Below, one piece after another: positions 10,331-44,642 of a stretch of DNA of 64,000 nucleotides (position 1 is the first letter of the stretch; every line of letters begins with the position of its first letter). Position numbers and translations under genes: made by a program. Location of the stretch: contig NZ_LMFR01000003.1 of assembly GCF_001426925.1 (NCBI RefSeq), positions 1-64,000 on the forward strand, read 5' to 3'. Below the pieces are notes generated by a model. That model did no database searches. It was given only the letters and a program-made list of their open reading frames with translations, and was not told the DNA's origin. The stretch comes from Microbacterium sp. Root53 (GTDB taxonomy: Bacteria > Actinomycetota > Actinomycetes > Actinomycetales > Microbacteriaceae).

Positions 10331-10918
10331 GTGGCCGTCGACAGGGAGCGCATCGCCGCGCTGACCCGCGAGCTGCTGATCGCGATCGGCGAGGATCCGG
10401 ACCGGCCGGGCCTGCGCCAGACGCCGCAGCGCGTCGCGGATGCCGCGGTGGAGATGTACGGGGGAGTGGGACAGGATCCGGCCGAGCCGCTGTCGCACAC
10501 GATCAGCGTGACGCACGGGCCGGCTCCCGATACGCTGCCGTCCGGGGTGGTGATCCTGCGCGACGTGCGCTTCCGCTCGACGTGCGAGCACCACCTGCTG
10601 CCGTTCGCGGGCCACGCGCACATCGCCTACCTGCCCGGGGAGCAGGTCGTGGGGCTCGGCGCCCTGCCGAAGGTGGTCGAGATCCTGGCGGCCCGGCCGC
10701 AGGTGCAGGAGCGGCTCGGCGAGCAGATCGCCGACACGATCGCGTCGTCGATCGATGCTCGCGGTGTGCTCGTCGTCCTGGACGCCTCCCATCAGTGCGT
10801 GACCATGCGTGGATCCCGGCAGACCGAGAGCACGACCGTCACGGTCGCCGTCCGTGGCGAGCTCACGGACGCCGCGCTGCGTGCCGAGGCCATCGCCCTG
10901 ATCGGGGTGCACGGATGA
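10331..10918 (+). CDS. folE: GTP cyclohydrolase I
   Basis: 195 aa. It converts GTP to 7,8-dihydroneopterin triphosphate, the first step of folate synthesis. The GTG at 10331 is chosen because AGGAGG at 10321-10326 precedes it; a longer in-frame extension would overlap ftsH. Motifs: FRSTCEHHLLPFAGHAHIAY with the zinc-binding Cys and His residues, LGALPKVVEILAARPQVQERL and the C-terminal HQCVTMRG zinc Cys region. First gene of an overlapping folE-folP-folB-folK chain directly behind ftsH. Confidence 0.96.
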   Translation: MAVDRERIAALTRELLIAIGEDPDRPGLRQTPQRVADAAVEMYGGVGQDPAEPLSHTISVTHGPAPDTLPSGVVILRDVRFRSTCEHHLLPFAGHAHIAYLPGEQVVGLGALPKVVEILAARPQVQERLGEQIADTIASSIDARGVLVVLDASHQCVTMRGSRQTESTTVTVAVRGELTDAALRAEAIALIGVHG

Positions 10919-38023: not shown

Positions 38024-38108
38024 GGAGGGTTGTCCGAGCGGCCGAAGGATCTGGTCTTGAAAACCAGTGGGCAGCAATGTCCCGTGGGTTCGAATCCCAC
38101 ACCCTCCG
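38024..38108 (+). tRNA. tRNA-Ser (TGA)
   Basis: An 85-base class II tRNA: acceptor GGAGGGT with ACCCTCC, anticodon loop CTTGAAA (TGA), a long variable arm (GGGCAGCAATGTCCC) and T-loop GTTCGAATC. The discriminator is G, as required for Ser; CCA is not encoded. A TAGACT box at 37985-37990 is the probable -10 element. Confidence 0.95.
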
Positions 38109-38195
38109 CGGAATGACGGCGGCGGGGTGCGAGCACTCGGGGGAGCCGCCGGCAGGATCACCGCGCCCCAGCGGTGCGATGAGAGGAACACCCGA

Positions 38196-39568: not shown

Positions 39569-39658
39569 GGAGACGTCGCATAGTCAGGCCTAGTGCACCA
39601 CCCTGCTAAGGTGGAGTCCCCTTAATGGGGACCGAGGGTTCAAATCCCTCCGTCTCCG
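39569..39658 (+). tRNA. tRNA-Ser (GCT)
   Basis: A 90-base class II tRNA: acceptor GGAGACG with CGTCTCC, anticodon loop CTGCTAA (GCT), a long variable arm (GAGTCCCCTTAATGGGGACC) and T-loop GTTCAAATC. Discriminator G, CCA not encoded. TACTAT at 39510-39515 is a likely -10 box. A strong terminator follows 5 bases later. Confidence 0.95.
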
Positions 39659-39662
39659 CGGA

Positions 39663-39951: not shown

Positions 39952-40974
39952 ATGGCGAGCGAGACATCGTTCTGGGTCGAGGGCCCCGGGCGGGGTCGGC
40001 TCCGCACCGCGGAAGTGCGGGAGCCCGGCGACGGCGAGGTCCGCGTGCGCACGTGGTTCACCGGCATCAGCCGTGGGACGGAGGCGACGGTGTTCCGCGG
40101 CGAGGTGCCCGAGCGGGAGCGCGAGCGCATGCGCGCGCCGTTCCAGGAGGGCGACTTCCCGGCGCCCGTCAAGTACGGCTATCTGAACGTCGGCGTCGTC
40201 GAGCACGGTCCCGCGGCGCTCAGGGGCAGGGCCGTGTTCACGCTCGTCCCGCACCAGTCGGTCTTCGTCGTGCCCGAGACGGCCGTCACGCCGGTCCCCG
40301 AGGGCGTGCCGCCGCGGCGGGCCGTGCTCGCGGGCGCCGTGGAGACGGCCGTCAACGTGCTGTGGGACGCCGCTCCGCTCGTCGGCGACCGGATCACGGT
40401 GGTCGGCGCGGGCATGATCGGCTGCGCGGTCGCGCGGCTGGCGCAGGGCATCCCGGGCGCCGACGTGGTCGTGGTGGACCGCGACACCGGGAAGGCCGAC
40501 GTCTGCGCCGCCCTCGAGGTCCCGTTCCGGACCCCGGACGACGCCCCTGAGGAGCGCGACATCGTGATCGACACCAGTGCGTCGGAGGACGGGCTGCGGC
40601 TCGCCCTGCGGACGGCCGCGACCGAGGGGGAGATCATCGAGGCCAGCTGGTTCGGCGCGCGCGAGGTGAGCCTGCCGCTCGGCGAGGACTTCCACTCGCG
40701 ACGGCTCACCATCCGCTCGAGCCAGGTCGGCCTCGTGGCCCCGCGCCGCCGTGCGACGCGGACGCCCGCGACACGGCTCGCGCTGGCGCTCGAGCTGCTG
40801 CGAGACCCGGCGTTCGACGCGCTCCTCACCGGCGAATCGCCATGGACGAGCCTGCCCGACGTCATGGCGGGCATCGCGGACGGCAGCCTTCCGGGGCTCT
40901 GCCACACGATCAACTGGCGAGACGGCAACTGGCGAGACGGCACCTGGCAAGGCGGCGACGGGACAGGCGGATGA
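39952..40974 (+). CDS. Medium-chain (zinc-type) dehydrogenase of a pterin-like operon
   Basis: 340 aa from the ATG at 39952, preceded by GGAGGGA. MDR fold: a GroES-like N-terminal half (TWFTGISRGTEATVFRGEVP) and a Rossmann half with VVGAGMIGCAVARLAQG (about 150-166) followed by an acidic residue (VVDRD), typical for NAD. The usual catalytic Cys of zinc alcohol dehydrogenases is not obvious in the N-terminal half (ISRGTE in place of the Cys loop), so chemistry may differ. First of four overlapping genes; its TGA overlaps the ATG of the PTPS-like gene. Substrate unknown; presumably an intermediate of this operon. Confidence 0.82.
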   Translation: MASETSFWVEGPGRGRLRTAEVREPGDGEVRVRTWFTGISRGTEATVFRGEVPERERERMRAPFQEGDFPAPVKYGYLNVGVVEHGPAALRGRAVFTLVPHQSVFVVPETAVTPVPEGVPPRRAVLAGAVETAVNVLWDAAPLVGDRITVVGAGMIGCAVARLAQGIPGADVVVVDRDTGKADVCAALEVPFRTPDDAPEERDIVIDTSASEDGLRLALRTAATEGEIIEASWFGAREVSLPLGEDFHSRRLTIRSSQVGLVAPRRRATRTPATRLALALELLRDPAFDALLTGESPWTSLPDVMAGIADGSLPGLCHTINWRDGNWRDGTWQGGDGTGG

Positions 40975-41372
40975 CCTACACGCTCACGGTCCGCGATCAC
41001 ATGATGGTCGCGCACAGCTTCACCGGTGACATGTTCGGGCCGGCGCAGCGACTGCATGGCGCCACGTTCGTCGTGGACGCCGCCTTCCGCGCCGCGGCGC
41101 TGGACGACAACGGCGTCGTGGTCGACATCGGCCGCGCGTCCGACGTGCTGCGCGGCATCCTGTCGTCGCTGACGTACCGCAACCTCGACGACGATCCGCG
41201 CTTCGTCGGCGTCAACACGACGACCGAACGGCTGTGCGCGTTCATCGCGGAGCAGCTCGCGACCGCGGCGCGCACGGGAACGCTCGGAAGGGATGCCGGC
41301 GACCTGCACGGGATCGCGGTCACGCTCCACGAGTCGCACGTCGCGTGGGCGTCGTACGAACTGGAGCTGTGA
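40971..41372 (+). CDS. Divergent 6-pyruvoyl-tetrahydropterin synthase (QueD)-like protein
   Basis: 133 aa T-fold protein of the PTPS/QueD family: MMVAHSF (His15), RLHGATFVVDAAF (His29), NLDDDPRF, then NTTTERLCAFIAEQL and VTLHESHVAW at the C-terminus. Compared with E. coli QueD (from memory), the catalytic Cys27 corresponds to Ala25, the zinc ligand His33 to Ala31 and the catalytic His71 to Asp73, while His15, His29 and the C-terminal Glu remain. It is therefore unlikely to be an ordinary PTPS or carboxytetrahydropterin synthase. Overlaps by ATGA with the dehydrogenase and by TGATG with the glycosyltransferase gene. I recall similar motif-altered copies in equivalent clusters of other actinobacteria. 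Confidence 0.85.
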   Translation: MTYTLTVRDHMMVAHSFTGDMFGPAQRLHGATFVVDAAFRAAALDDNGVVVDIGRASDVLRGILSSLTYRNLDDDPRFVGVNTTTERLCAFIAEQLATAARTGTLGRDAGDLHGIAVTLHESHVAWASYELEL

Positions 41373-42391
41373 TGGCGACCACGACCTTCGTGGTGCCGAC
41401 CGGCGTCGACGATCCGGCCCGAGTGAGCGGCGGGAACGTCTACGACCGTCACGTGCGGGACGGCCTGGCGCACGCGGGCTGGGAGGTGCGGATGGCCGAG
41501 GTCGCGCCGGGCGCGGACCGGGACGTGCGGCGCGCCCTCGCGACGGTGCCGGACGGCGGGGTCGCGCTGGTGGACGGCCTGATCGCCGGGGTGTCGGCGA
41601 GCGCGATCGAGGACGAGGCTCGCCGCGTGCGCGTGGTCATCCTGGCCCACATGGTCGTCGACGCGTTCCCCGGCGCGGATGCGGCCGCGGTCGACGGGCA
41701 GTGGCGCGCGCTGCGCGCGGCGCACCGGGTGATCGCCGTGAGCGAGTGGGCCGCGGCGCAGTTCACCGCGGGCGGGATCCGCGACGTCGTCGTCGCGACG
41801 CCGGGCGGCGCCCCGGCCGAGGTGGCGACCGGCACGCCGGGAGGCGGCGAGCTCCTGTGCGTGGGCGTGCTCGCGCCGCACAAGGGGCAGGATGTGCTCG
41901 TCGACGCGCTGGCGCGCCTCGTCGACATCGAGGGCTGGCGGTGCACGCTGGCGGGCGCCACCGACGTGGAGCCGGACTTCGCCGAGGCGCTGAGGGCACG
42001 CTCGCGCGCGGCCGGCGTCGCCGAGCGCGTCGAGTTTTCCGGCGTCCAGTCGGCCGCGGGTCTCGAGCGCATCTACCGGCGCAGCGACGTGCTGGTGGCG
42101 CCGTCGCGTGCCGAGGCGTACGGCATGGCGATCACCGAGGCGCTGGGGCGCGGCATCCCGGTCGTCGCCAGTCGTACGGGCGGGATCCCCGAGGCCGTCG
42201 ACCCGGACGCCGCGATCCTCGTGAGACCGGGGGACGTCCGCGCGCTCGCCGACGCCCTGGACCGATGGATGTCCGATCCGGCGCTGCGGCGCGGGCTCAA
42301 GGACGCGGCCGTCCGCGCGCGCTCGCGCCTGCGCGGCTGGCGGGACACGGTGACGCGGATCTCGTCCGCCCTCCGGGAGGAGGAACCATGA
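41372..42391 (+). CDS. GT-B (family 4 type) glycosyltransferase
   Basis: 339 aa. The C-terminal nucleotide-sugar half has the GT4 pattern: LLCVGVLAPHKGQDVLVDAL, VEFSGVQ, and the E-x7-E region SRAEAYGMAITEALGRGIPVVASRTGGIPEAV (about 245-277). The N-terminal half contains VSGGNVYDRHVRDGLAHAGW, a typical acceptor-side Gly-rich loop. No membrane segment. The start ATG shares a base with the previous stop; a GTG one codon earlier is also possible. In this operon it probably adds a sugar to a small heterocycle rather than building a cell-wall polymer; that is inference. Confidence 0.85.
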   Translation: MATTTFVVPTGVDDPARVSGGNVYDRHVRDGLAHAGWEVRMAEVAPGADRDVRRALATVPDGGVALVDGLIAGVSASAIEDEARRVRVVILAHMVVDAFPGADAAAVDGQWRALRAAHRVIAVSEWAAAQFTAGGIRDVVVATPGGAPAEVATGTPGGGELLCVGVLAPHKGQDVLVDALARLVDIEGWRCTLAGATDVEPDFAEALRARSRAAGVAERVEFSGVQSAAGLERIYRRSDVLVAPSRAEAYGMAITEALGRGIPVVASRTGGIPEAVDPDAAILVRPGDVRALADALDRWMSDPALRRGLKDAAVRARSRLRGWRDTVTRISSALREEEP

Positions 42392-43149
42392 CCGGATCGC
42401 GCGAGACGGACCGTCGCAGCCGCCCCTACGTCACGCTCAGCTGCGCCATGTCGCTCGACGGCTGCGTCGACACCGCCGCGCCTCACCGCCTGGCGCTGTC
42501 GAACGAGGCCGACTTCGACCGCGTCGACCAGCTGCGCGCGGACAGCGACGCCATCATGGTCGGCGCCTCCACGGTGCGGCGCGACAACCCGCGGCTGCTC
42601 GTGCGCAGCGAGGAGCGCCGCCGCGCCCGGGTCGAGCGCGGGCTCACGGAGTCGCCCGCCAAGGTCACCGTCACGGCGACCGGCGATCTGCCGGCCGACT
42701 CCTCGTTCTTCACGGCGGGCGACATCGAGAAGCTGGTTTACTGCCCCGCCGGGGAAGCCGACCGGATCTCCCGCGCGCTCGGCGACCGGGCGACGGTGGT
42801 CGGGCTCGGCGCGGAGGTGTCGATGACGCTCGTGCTGGAGGACCTCGCACAGCGCGGCATCGGCCGGCTCATGGTCGAGGGCGGCGGGCGGCTCCACACC
42901 CAGTTCCTCGTCGAGCGGCTCGCCGACGAGCTCCAGCTCGTGGTCGCGCCCTTCTTCGTGGGCGAGGCGGGCGCGCCCCGGTTCGTCCGTCCGGGACGGT
43001 TCCCGTGGGACGAGGGCCACCGCGCCCGGCTGCTCGACACCCGGCCCATCGGCGACGTGGTCCTGCTGCGCTACGCGCTCTCCGCGCGCTGCCCGGCGAG
43101 CGTCGCGGACGAGGTCGCGCGCGTGCAGGCGAGTTCGCCCGTCCCGTAG
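42388..43149 (+). CDS. RibD C-terminal-domain (dihydrofolate reductase-fold) reductase
   Basis: 253 aa, reductase domain only, without the deaminase half of RibD. Features: PYVTLSCAMSLDGCVDT near the N-terminus, DAIMVGASTVRRDNPRLLVR, GRLMVEGGGRLHTQFLVERLADEL and a C-terminal FVGEAGAPRF segment. Proteins of this fold reduce ribosylamino-pyrimidines or folates with NADPH. Stand-alone copies in secondary clusters suggest use of a riboflavin-pathway intermediate or pterin. The ATG overlaps the glycosyltransferase stop (ATGA) behind a GGGAGGAGGA site; last gene of the four. Confidence 0.86.
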   Translation: MTGSRETDRRSRPYVTLSCAMSLDGCVDTAAPHRLALSNEADFDRVDQLRADSDAIMVGASTVRRDNPRLLVRSEERRRARVERGLTESPAKVTVTATGDLPADSSFFTAGDIEKLVYCPAGEADRISRALGDRATVVGLGAEVSMTLVLEDLAQRGIGRLMVEGGGRLHTQFLVERLADELQLVVAPFFVGEAGAPRFVRPGRFPWDEGHRARLLDTRPIGDVVLLRYALSARCPASVADEVARVQASSPVP

Positions 43150-43301: not shown

Positions 43302-44642
43302 ATGGAACACGAAGGCCGGCAGGCGGCGGAGACGATCGAGCGGGGCATCGGCCGGCGCGGGCTCCTGCAGGCGGCGGCGGCCGTCGGCGCGGGCACCGCC
43401 CTCGCGCTGGGGGCGACTCGGCCCGCGGCGGCCGCGCCGGTCACCGGACGGGCGGATGCGTACACCGGCGTCCTCCAGCCGGGCCGGGGCCGCATCGACG
43501 GGGACGTGTACCTCGGCTCGGAGCCCGACGAGGTGCTGTGGGGCTACGTCCCCTCCGTGCACGCGTCGCCGACGGCGCGCATCCGGTCGGGGCAGACCGT
43601 GACGATCGACGCGGTCTCGCACGAGGGCATCCTGGAGGATCAGGGGCGCGACCCGGTCGCCTACTTCGCGGAGCACGGCTTCTCGCGCCGCGAGGTGCTC
43701 GACGACGCGGTCGCGATCGCCTCCGGGTACACGCGCACCCCGCGCGACTTCGACCGCGACGGGCCCCACGTCGTCACCGGGCCGGTGTTCGTGGAGGGCG
43801 CCCAGCCGGGCGACGTGCTCAAGATCGAGACGCTCGAGGCGCGCCCGCGCGTGCCCTACGGCGTGATCTCGTCCCGGCACGGAAAGGGATCGCTCGCCGT
43901 CACGTCGAACGGGGCGCCCGCCGGCATCACGCTCGACGAGGTCATGCCGCCGGTCGAGACCGACGGGCGGTCGACGGGCATCCCGACCGAGTACGGCAAC
44001 GTGTCGGTGCTCGCCAGCGTGCAGGGAACAAGCGCGGTGGTCGGCTCGGGCGCGAGCCGCGCGAAGTTCCCGCTGCGCCCGTTCTTCGGGATGATGGGCG
44101 TCGCGTTCTCGCAGAACACCGAGCCGACCGCGCCGGAGGCGAACTCCATCCCGCCGACGCTCGGCGGCGGCAACATCGACATCAGCCTGCTCGGACCGGG
44201 GTCCACGTTCTACGTCCCCGTGAGCGCCGAGGGCGCCCTGTTCTACGTCGGCGACCCGCACATGGCGATGGGCGACGGCGAGGTCGCGCTCACGGCGATG
44301 GAGGGATCGCTGCGCGGGACCTTCCGGCTCACGGTCTGCAAGCCCGGTTCGGGCGACGCGCCGTCCGTCGCGTTCACATACCCGTTCGCCGAGACCGAGG
44401 ACCTGTGGATCCCGATCGGCCTGTCGGATCCGAACGGCTCGGTCGACGGGCAGATCAACGACCTCGACATCGCCATGCGCCGCGCGGTCGTGAACGCGCT
44501 GGACTTCCTGCAGCACGACCTCGGGATGGACCGCGCGATCGCGTACGCGTACCTGTCGGCCGCCGCCGACTTCGTCGTGTCGCAGGTCGTCGACCGCACG
44601 GTCGGCGTGCACGGCAAGATCCGCAAGTCCGACATCGGCTGA
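43302..44642 (+). CDS. Tat-exported acetamidase/formamidase family protein
   Basis: 446 aa. A twin-arginine signal (GIGRRGLLQAAAAVGAGTALALG, about 18-40; cleavage near AAAA-P) is followed by the FmdA/AmdA beta-rich fold: TVTIDAVSHEGILEDQG, HVVTGPVFVEGAQPGDVLKIE, SSRHGKGSLA, GNIDISLLGPGSTFYVPV and DPHMAMGDGEVALTAMEG. Cytosolic relatives hydrolyse formamide or acetamide; an exported one would act on amides outside the cytoplasm. It follows the pterin-like operon after 152 bases, so co-function is possible but unproven. A strong terminator follows. Confidence 0.85.
   Translation: MEHEGRQAAETIERGIGRRGLLQAAAAVGAGTALALGATRPAAAAPVTGRADAYTGVLQPGRGRIDGDVYLGSEPDEVLWGYVPSVHASPTARIRSGQTVTIDAVSHEGILEDQGRDPVAYFAEHGFSRREVLDDAVAIASGYTRTPRDFDRDGPHVVTGPVFVEGAQPGDVLKIETLEARPRVPYGVISSRHGKGSLAVTSNGAPAGITLDEVMPPVETDGRSTGIPTEYGNVSVLASVQGTSAVVGSGASRAKFPLRPFFGMMGVAFSQNTEPTAPEANSIPPTLGGGNIDISLLGPGSTFYVPVSAEGALFYVGDPHMAMGDGEVALTAMEGSLRGTFRLTVCKPGSGDAPSVAFTYPFAETEDLWIPIGLSDPNGSVDGQINDLDIAMRRAVVNALDFLQHDLGMDRAIAYAYLSAAADFVVSQVVDRTVGVHGKIRKSDIG

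Follow-up and report, generated by a model that had tools for sequence, protein, structure and literature searches.

A four-gene PTPS-IV operon in Microbacterium sp. Root53 as a possible minimal core for a glycosylated pterin- or diaminopyrimidine-like compound

The present study analyzes a four-gene operon in a stretch of 64,000 nucleotides from Microbacterium sp. Root53 (contig NZ_LMFR01000003.1, positions 1 to 64,000 of the forward strand), the whole of which is called the window here. The genes encode a dehydrogenase, a PTPS-like protein, a GT-B glycosyltransferase of family 4 (GT4) and a stand-alone RibD_C reductase, and together they may well be the PTPS-IV (SCO6650-type) pathway reduced to its minimal core, through which the riboflavin precursor 2,5-diamino-6-ribosylamino-4(3H)-pyrimidinone 5'-phosphate (DARPP) would be turned into a glycosylated pterin- or diaminopyrimidine-like compound. 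All four reading frames are intact and open on the + strand and, as the original prediction held, they overlap at every join and form one unit (Table 1); the promoter and terminator scan found none.

The PTPS-IV protein and its operon partners

Judged from its sequence, the product of the second gene is a PTPS-IV protein of the SCO6650 type. It matches Pfam PTPS (E 1.6e-22, 80.2 bits), and its closest PDB match is 3d7j_A, which is SCO6650 of S. coelicolor (E 2.1e-48 over 129 aligned residues), with the next PDB match at E 0.003. Residues 22-26 read FGPAQ, and in the first set of 95 loci exactly this motif was present in 89, as it was in 38 of 40 Hyphomicrobiales loci, three of the exceptions being from Haloarcula. 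In section 19 of PMC5445326, FGPAQ is given as the PTPS-IV signature, with PF00925 and PF01872 as neighboring genes; PF00925 is called GTP cyclohydrolase I/FolE2 there, although Pfam's name for it is GTP_cyclohydro2. With this neighborhood in print and the structure 3d7j solved, the class can no longer be called uncharacterised, as it originally was: the PTPS-IV family and its neighborhood of GTP cyclohydrolase II (GCH II) and RibD are already known. The database records inspected usually annotate PTPS-IV as 6-carboxytetrahydropterin synthase. The Cys...HGH motif of PTPS/QueD is absent from the window protein, and the QueD and 6PTHBS models score below cut-off. Bacterial members carry HGAT in place of the classic HGH, with the loss of one of its histidines, and three copies on Haloarcula plasmids (L109, L114, L115) have HSHH instead of the bacterial HGAT. 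Residues H15, H29, D52, E86 and E121 were invariant in 24 aligned PTPS-IV members; the invariance of the pterin-type glutamates E86 and E121 speaks for the route proposed below.

An alternative explanation is a pterin glycoside from the folate branch, in which FolE would supply dihydroneopterin triphosphate to the PTPS-like protein, the dehydrogenase and a RibD_C protein resembling dihydrofolate reductase (DHFR) would yield a tetrahydropterin, and the GT4 would glycosylate it. A RibD_C protein can act as a DHFR. The PTPS fold is consistent with this, as is a FolE-type CEHH motif in the window at about position 10583 (+), 29 kb from the operon. Pterin glycosides are known in cyanobacteria (PMC13259868). 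Among known systems, the pteridine glycosyltransferases of cyanobacteria and Chlorobium differ from the pathway favored here in that their precursor route starts from dihydroneopterin triphosphate. What they share with it is the idea of a glycosylated pterin (PMC5683033). However, the catalytic Cys and HGH expected of such a PTPS are replaced as described above, and the cyclohydrolases linked to the cluster are GCH II and GTP cyclohydrolase III (GCH III), not GTP cyclohydrolase I. SCO6650, moreover, reportedly does not catalyze the PTPS reaction, and overall we consider an origin in the folate branch unlikely.

The GT4 matches Pfam Glycos_transf_1 (E 5.8e-31, 107.8 bits) and scores 78.2 bits against the TIGR03449 MshA model, below its cut-off of 462.5; its top PDB matches, 3c4q and 3c48, are labelled 'predicted glycosyltransferases' and we take them to be MshA. 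An enzyme of this kind makes the glycosylation that had been predicted plausible. The reductase matches Pfam RibD_C (E 5.5e-40, 137.7 bits), with 5xux as best PDB match (E 1.7e-32) and 6p8c and 2azn as further ones. By Pfam its 253 residues hold RibD_C only, and the deaminase domain that is fused to it in RibD of the riboflavin operon is absent. Across the cluster there are two divergent types of RibD_C, with 58–69% and 26–31% identity, respectively, to that of the window.

The dehydrogenase is harder to place. It scores 22.9 bits against Pfam ADH_zinc_N, below the 31.8-bit cut-off. The best family match of the bacterial cluster dehydrogenases tested is the bacteriochlorophyllide dehydrogenase BchC (TIGR01202, E 9.2e-12 for the window protein), but at 44.7 bits the window protein lies far under the family cut-off of 291.25 bits and is not counted as a member. 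In the motif SRGTE, residues S40, G42, T43 and E44 are invariant in 8 aligned members, the three from Haloarcula included, and Ser stands at the expected zinc-ligand Cys position in the window protein and the seven others; zinc alcohol dehydrogenases, we assume, have Cys there. The PDB neighbors (Foldseek) of its AlphaFold2 model (mean pLDDT 88.6) are medium-chain polyol and alcohol dehydrogenases at 12–19% identity, among them sorbitol, xylitol and idonate dehydrogenases. These neighbors would also suit a sugar-polyol or nucleoside-type metabolite with no pterin or pyrimidine ring, made by a medium-chain polyol dehydrogenase and a creatininase in the manner of IolM and IolN. The Haloarcula L109 dehydrogenase scores 68 bits against IolM and creatininases 64–75 against IolN, all below cut-off, but such a metabolite would leave GCH II, GCH III and RibD_C in the cluster unexplained and we regard it as decidedly improbable.

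Table 1. Genes of the operon and the overlaps that join them, in window positions
Feature	Position	Strand	Length
Gene 1, BchC-like medium-chain dehydrogenase lacking the usual catalytic zinc ligands	39952..40974	+	340 aa
Gene 2, PTPS-IV protein (by sequence), SCO6650-type, FGPAQ signature, HGAT replacing HGH	40971..41372	+	133 aa
Gene 3, GT-B glycosyltransferase, family 4 (GT4)	41372..42391	+	339 aa
Gene 4, stand-alone RibD_C reductase, no deaminase domain	42388..43149	+	253 aa
ATGA overlap, genes 1/2	40971..40974	+	4 bases
TGATG overlap, genes 2/3	41370..41374	+	1 base
ATGA overlap, genes 3/4	42388..42391	+	4 bases

Recurrence and reduction of the gene set

Co-occurrence of the four genes in other genomes had been named beforehand as the test of the original prediction, and all four were found together in 47 of 58 full-context loci. 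These 58 have 7 kb or more of sequence to either side of the PTPS gene and belong to a set of 80 that were the best-scoring among the matches listed in one scan, so that counts lean towards near relatives; neighbors were scored with profiles built for this analysis. Counted singly, the dehydrogenase and the GT4 were present in all 58, and RibD_C and RibA in 47 each, the latter in agreement with the prediction that comparable actinobacterial sets with a GCH II exist. Additional genes in the same loci were a methyltransferase (55), an LPG_synthase_TM membrane protein (LPG_TM, 55), a CDP-alcohol phosphotransferase (CDP-OH-PT, 52) and a creatininase (14). Loci L017 and L086 are cut off, and L111, whose record is unannotated, is without RibD_C by these profiles. 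A strong PTPS-IV match occurred in 7 of 35 Microbacterium genomes, the window genome included. A draw of 396 genomes of the phylum gave 83 PTPS matches at E 1e-15. Most of these are other PTPS types, since more than 180 bits was reached by only 9; a partial match had 120 bits and the remaining 73 no more than 103. Outside the phylum, 118 of 397 genomes drawn from the alphaproteobacterial order Hyphomicrobiales had a PTPS-IV match at E 1e-30, and the cluster reaches both proteobacteria and haloarchaea, there with envelope-type partner genes. A lone PTPS-IV gene, with no dehydrogenase or GT4 alongside, was seen on a Streptomyces plasmid (L117:10004-10402).

Six same-genus relatives (L140-L145) have the order CDP-OH-PT (divergent), dehydrogenase, PTPS, GT4, methyltransferase, LPG_TM and RibD_C, with the methyltransferase and LPG_TM (LPG_synthase_TM) genes sitting at the point where genes 3 and 4 of the window meet. 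The methyltransferase and LPG_TM profiles had no match in the whole genome of the window and the CDP-OH-PT profile only one of 27 bits there; in the positive control, the relative G012, the same three profiles scored 359–429 bits (CDP-OH-PT 359). The window thus differs from its PTPS-IV relatives in having no adjacent GCH II, methyltransferase, LPG_TM or CDP-OH-PT. With the SCO6650 family of S. coelicolor it has the PTPS-like protein and FGPAQ in common; of the published PTPS-IV neighborhood of GCH II and RibD_C, the window has RibD_C adjacent and no GCH II, the GCH II homolog of S. coelicolor being SCO6655. A tree was built from the four proteins, and loci with neither methyltransferase nor LPG_TM were scored on it as minimal; the window paired there with the full-set locus of Microbacterium salsuginis (L009; 100/99) and the four-gene locus of a metagenome-assembled genome (L012) with a full-set Agromyces locus (L013; 100/100), which amounts to 2 changes. 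The form without these two genes therefore arose at least twice. In L012 the contig starts about 0.6 kb before the dehydrogenase gene and loss of CDP-OH-PT is not judgeable; L042 is likewise without methyltransferase and LPG_TM and has a short upstream stretch.

A reduced set could also be a decaying remnant, left in a lineage that lost the methyltransferase, the membrane protein and the phosphotransferase and whose remaining genes make nothing. All six of the same-genus relatives fetched keep the longer set and the window genome is small (2.9 Mb), as might be expected of a remnant. Nevertheless, the four frames are intact, a fresh tight overlap lies at the deletion point, the invariant PTPS residues are retained and a second lineage, that of L012, came to the same form. 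Comparison of the window with L009 gave dN/dS values (Nei-Gojobori) of about 0.27, 0.30, 0.50 and 0.34 in operon order, rough in their dS because of the high G+C, and this range of about 0.27–0.50 likewise argues against decay, indicating purifying selection on the four genes. To us the operon is probably a core that still works, and a remnant seems quite unlikely.

An island at tRNA-Ser(gct) (39569-39659, ending 293 bases ahead of the operon) was considered and rejected: no empty site was shown, since the 3' end of the tRNA gene has no recurring copy of at least 16 bases within the window and, outside the window genome, no same-genus protein matches the downstream amidase at more than 54% identity. 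This amidase-like frame directly follows the operon (43302-44642, +), with 54% identity to that best match, and a second copy at 49% identity lies on contig G000:C10 of the window genome. Just upstream of the operon, a pair of tRNA-Ser genes with different anticodons (38024-38109, 39569-39659) flanks a cell-wall-type frame that appears LCP-like by eye.

Precursor supply and the proposed route

DARPP is the likely feedstock. As had been predicted, no cyclohydrolase is adjacent to the operon, and the RibA profile had no match within the 64-kb window; the only GTP_cyclohydro2 (PF00925) match of the window genome is on another contig and is of the ordinary tyrosine type (KLRAYALQ). RibA was in the locus in 17 of 20 genomes searched, all 17 with at least two PF00925 matches, a few of them partial, and two Microbacterium genomes without a locus RibA had one match each. 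The predicted origin from pterin or riboflavin precursors is thereby narrowed: GTP-derived ribosylamino-pyrimidines are the likely feed, but folE is probably not the source, as relatives have a GCH II or GCH III for their dedicated cyclohydrolase and the genome has one ordinary GCH II.

Further indications come from the switch residue of the cluster RibA, readable in 62 rows after L049, which has no readable switch residue, was set aside. With a creatininase nearby it was Met in 12, His in 3 and Tyr in 1 (16 rows), and without one it was Tyr in 45 and Ser in 1, the degenerate RibA of L082 (46 rows). A change of the SCO6655 switch residue to Met reportedly halts the reaction at FAPy. PMC9478397 describes how the creatininase-annotated BrbF of S. 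meliloti and Brucella removes the formyl group of FAPy to give DARPP, and names GCH III, a family distinct from GCH II, as a maker of FAPy. A GCH_III (PF05165, E 3.4e-81) is the adjacent cyclohydrolase in Haloarcula L109, and a protein annotated GTP cyclohydrolase IIa lies beside the cluster in L114, while L115 has a creatininase and no cyclohydrolase in the stretch shown. The creatininase had no match in the window's genome. The proposed precursor and the order of the reductase resemble the archaeal entry to riboflavin (GCH III - ArfB - ArfC) and the bacterial BrbF, with a creatininase-type formamidase in some cluster relatives and GCH III in the Haloarcula copies; a difference is that the PTPS-IV cluster has no later riboflavin genes and that similarity to ArfB is at most 37 bits. 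RibA-like proteins with Leu at the switch (KL(E/D)CLALQ), perhaps a different enzyme, were seen near the cluster in L196, L198, L208 and L219.

In the route proposed, DARPP would come from the single ordinary GCH II of the genome, shared with riboflavin synthesis, and the stand-alone RibD_C would reduce it or a close derivative and, having no deaminase domain, would keep the 2-amino group, as in archaea and fungi. The PTPS-IV protein, predicted to be a zinc-less T-fold, would grip the 2-amino-4-oxo-pyrimidine edge via its conserved glutamates and reshape the ring or the side chain, the BchC-like zinc-free dehydrogenase would oxidize or reduce a side-chain hydroxyl, and the GT4 would add a sugar to the side chain. 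In the window organism the product would be soluble and glycosylated, and pterin- or diaminopyrimidine-like in structure. The genes with their coupling, recurrence and reduced set, and the family relations, are observed, and precursor, reductase step and glycosylation are what we infer; for the order of the steps, the PTPS-IV reaction, the identity of the sugar and the purpose of the compound we offer guesswork.

Several observations weigh against this route or parts of it. The pairing of creatininase and switch residue corresponds to one change on the RibA tree; it therefore has one bacterial origin, unreplicated in bacteria, and was rejected as independent evidence. For the cluster creatininase the top-scoring model is MftE, at 141 bits still below cut-off, and ArfB gives no more than 37 bits, so that a deformylase role would be by analogy with BrbF only. 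RibD_C was not found within 7 kb in 12 of 17 creatininase loci, in 11 of the 58 full-context loci or in 16 of the 40 Hyphomicrobiales stretches fetched, and because of this the reductase step may not be universal, or RibD_C may sit elsewhere. That the best NCBIfam match of the window RibD_C is TIGR01508, the archaeal DARPP reductase, speaks for the route, but its 131.3 bits are under the 186.45 cut-off. The GT4 is the fastest-changing of the four genes in the four-protein tree, and its acceptor is not readable from the sequence. Finally, the full-set pair L140/L141 has dN/dS of about 0.22–0.40, slightly below the window pairs, and selection on the window operon may be mildly relaxed.

An F420-related step for PTPS-IV is a further alternative. 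A ribitylamino-pyrimidine is a building block of FO, too, and an FbiC-like frame is present in the window genome, with 254 bits against the CofH model (cut-off 374). PTPS-IV has been placed in archaeal F420 synthesis in an unpublished remark cited in PMC5041015. On the other hand, in 42 PTPS-IV genomes the CofH model had no match above 40 bits in 24 (none at all in 17), an intermediate one in 10 and one passing the cut-off in 8. A role in F420 synthesis was rejected for bacteria as hardly compatible with these counts, and an F420-related step for PTPS-IV seems barely credible. The FbiC-like protein itself (G000:C11:33016-34005, open frame of 1005 aa) occurs in the window genome and in Microbacterium relatives.

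Envelope-type partners in relatives and meaning of the cluster

The 47 proteobacterial loci, 40 from the 118 matching Hyphomicrobiales genomes and 7 from plasmids, contained the dehydrogenase in 47, GT4 in 46, methyltransferase in 45, RibD_C in 31, cytochrome b561 in 30, RibA in 19, CDP-OH-PT in 10 and LPG_TM in 7. Of these loci, 31 had a large protein of the GT2 type, which matches Pfam Glyco_trans_2_3 and carries the annotation MdoH in M. trichosporium, and cytochrome b561 was gained or lost 13 times among the 47. Over 135 loci, CDP-OH-PT occurred alone in 80, the MdoH-like gene alone in 36, neither in 19 and both in 0. The two swap twice on a tree of 70 of the 135 loci, so that their exclusion is partly shared ancestry. 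The motif D..DG..AR........G...D...D, which we take to be that of CDP-alcohol phosphotransferases, is complete in 8 of 8 aligned CDP-OH-PT proteins. Their best model, a weak one, is archaetidylinositol phosphate synthase, the acceptor of which is a polyol phosphate. Within 20 kb around the window operon there is neither a CDP-OH-PT nor an MdoH-like GT2, the latter having been looked for there only and not genome-wide.

The presence in relatives of a CDP-OH-PT or an MdoH-like glycosyltransferase beside the core, never both, suggests that elsewhere in the cluster the product's destination is the envelope. It is possible, though doubtful, that in Actinomycetota, Pseudomonadota and haloarchaea the PTPS-IV cluster makes a pteridine glycoconjugate of a class not described before, redox-active and anchored in the envelope, either as a glycolipid with a pterin head or as a substituent of a glucan. 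The CDP-alcohol phosphotransferase would join its polyol-phosphate side chain to lipid, or an MdoH-like route would carry it, and the compound would be moved by LPG_TM and often coupled to cytochrome b561 in proteobacteria, with the window organism keeping the soluble core only. These partner genes, the CDP-OH-PT motif and the polyol-phosphate-type best model are the grounds for this suggestion.

As far as the literature searched goes, the twofold reduction of the core, the link between switch residue and creatininase, the haloarchaeal GCH III and the either/or envelope genes seem to be new. PTPS-IV is common (118 of 397 genomes drawn from one alphaproteobacterial order, 7 of 35 of the window genus), and no product of its cluster was found in that literature. 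For anyone seeking the compound, the natural four-gene form, arisen at least twice, is the smallest set to express, its small number of genes making the product easier to hunt, and the precursor logic together with the either/or envelope genes gives concrete predictions of where the compound may be sought.

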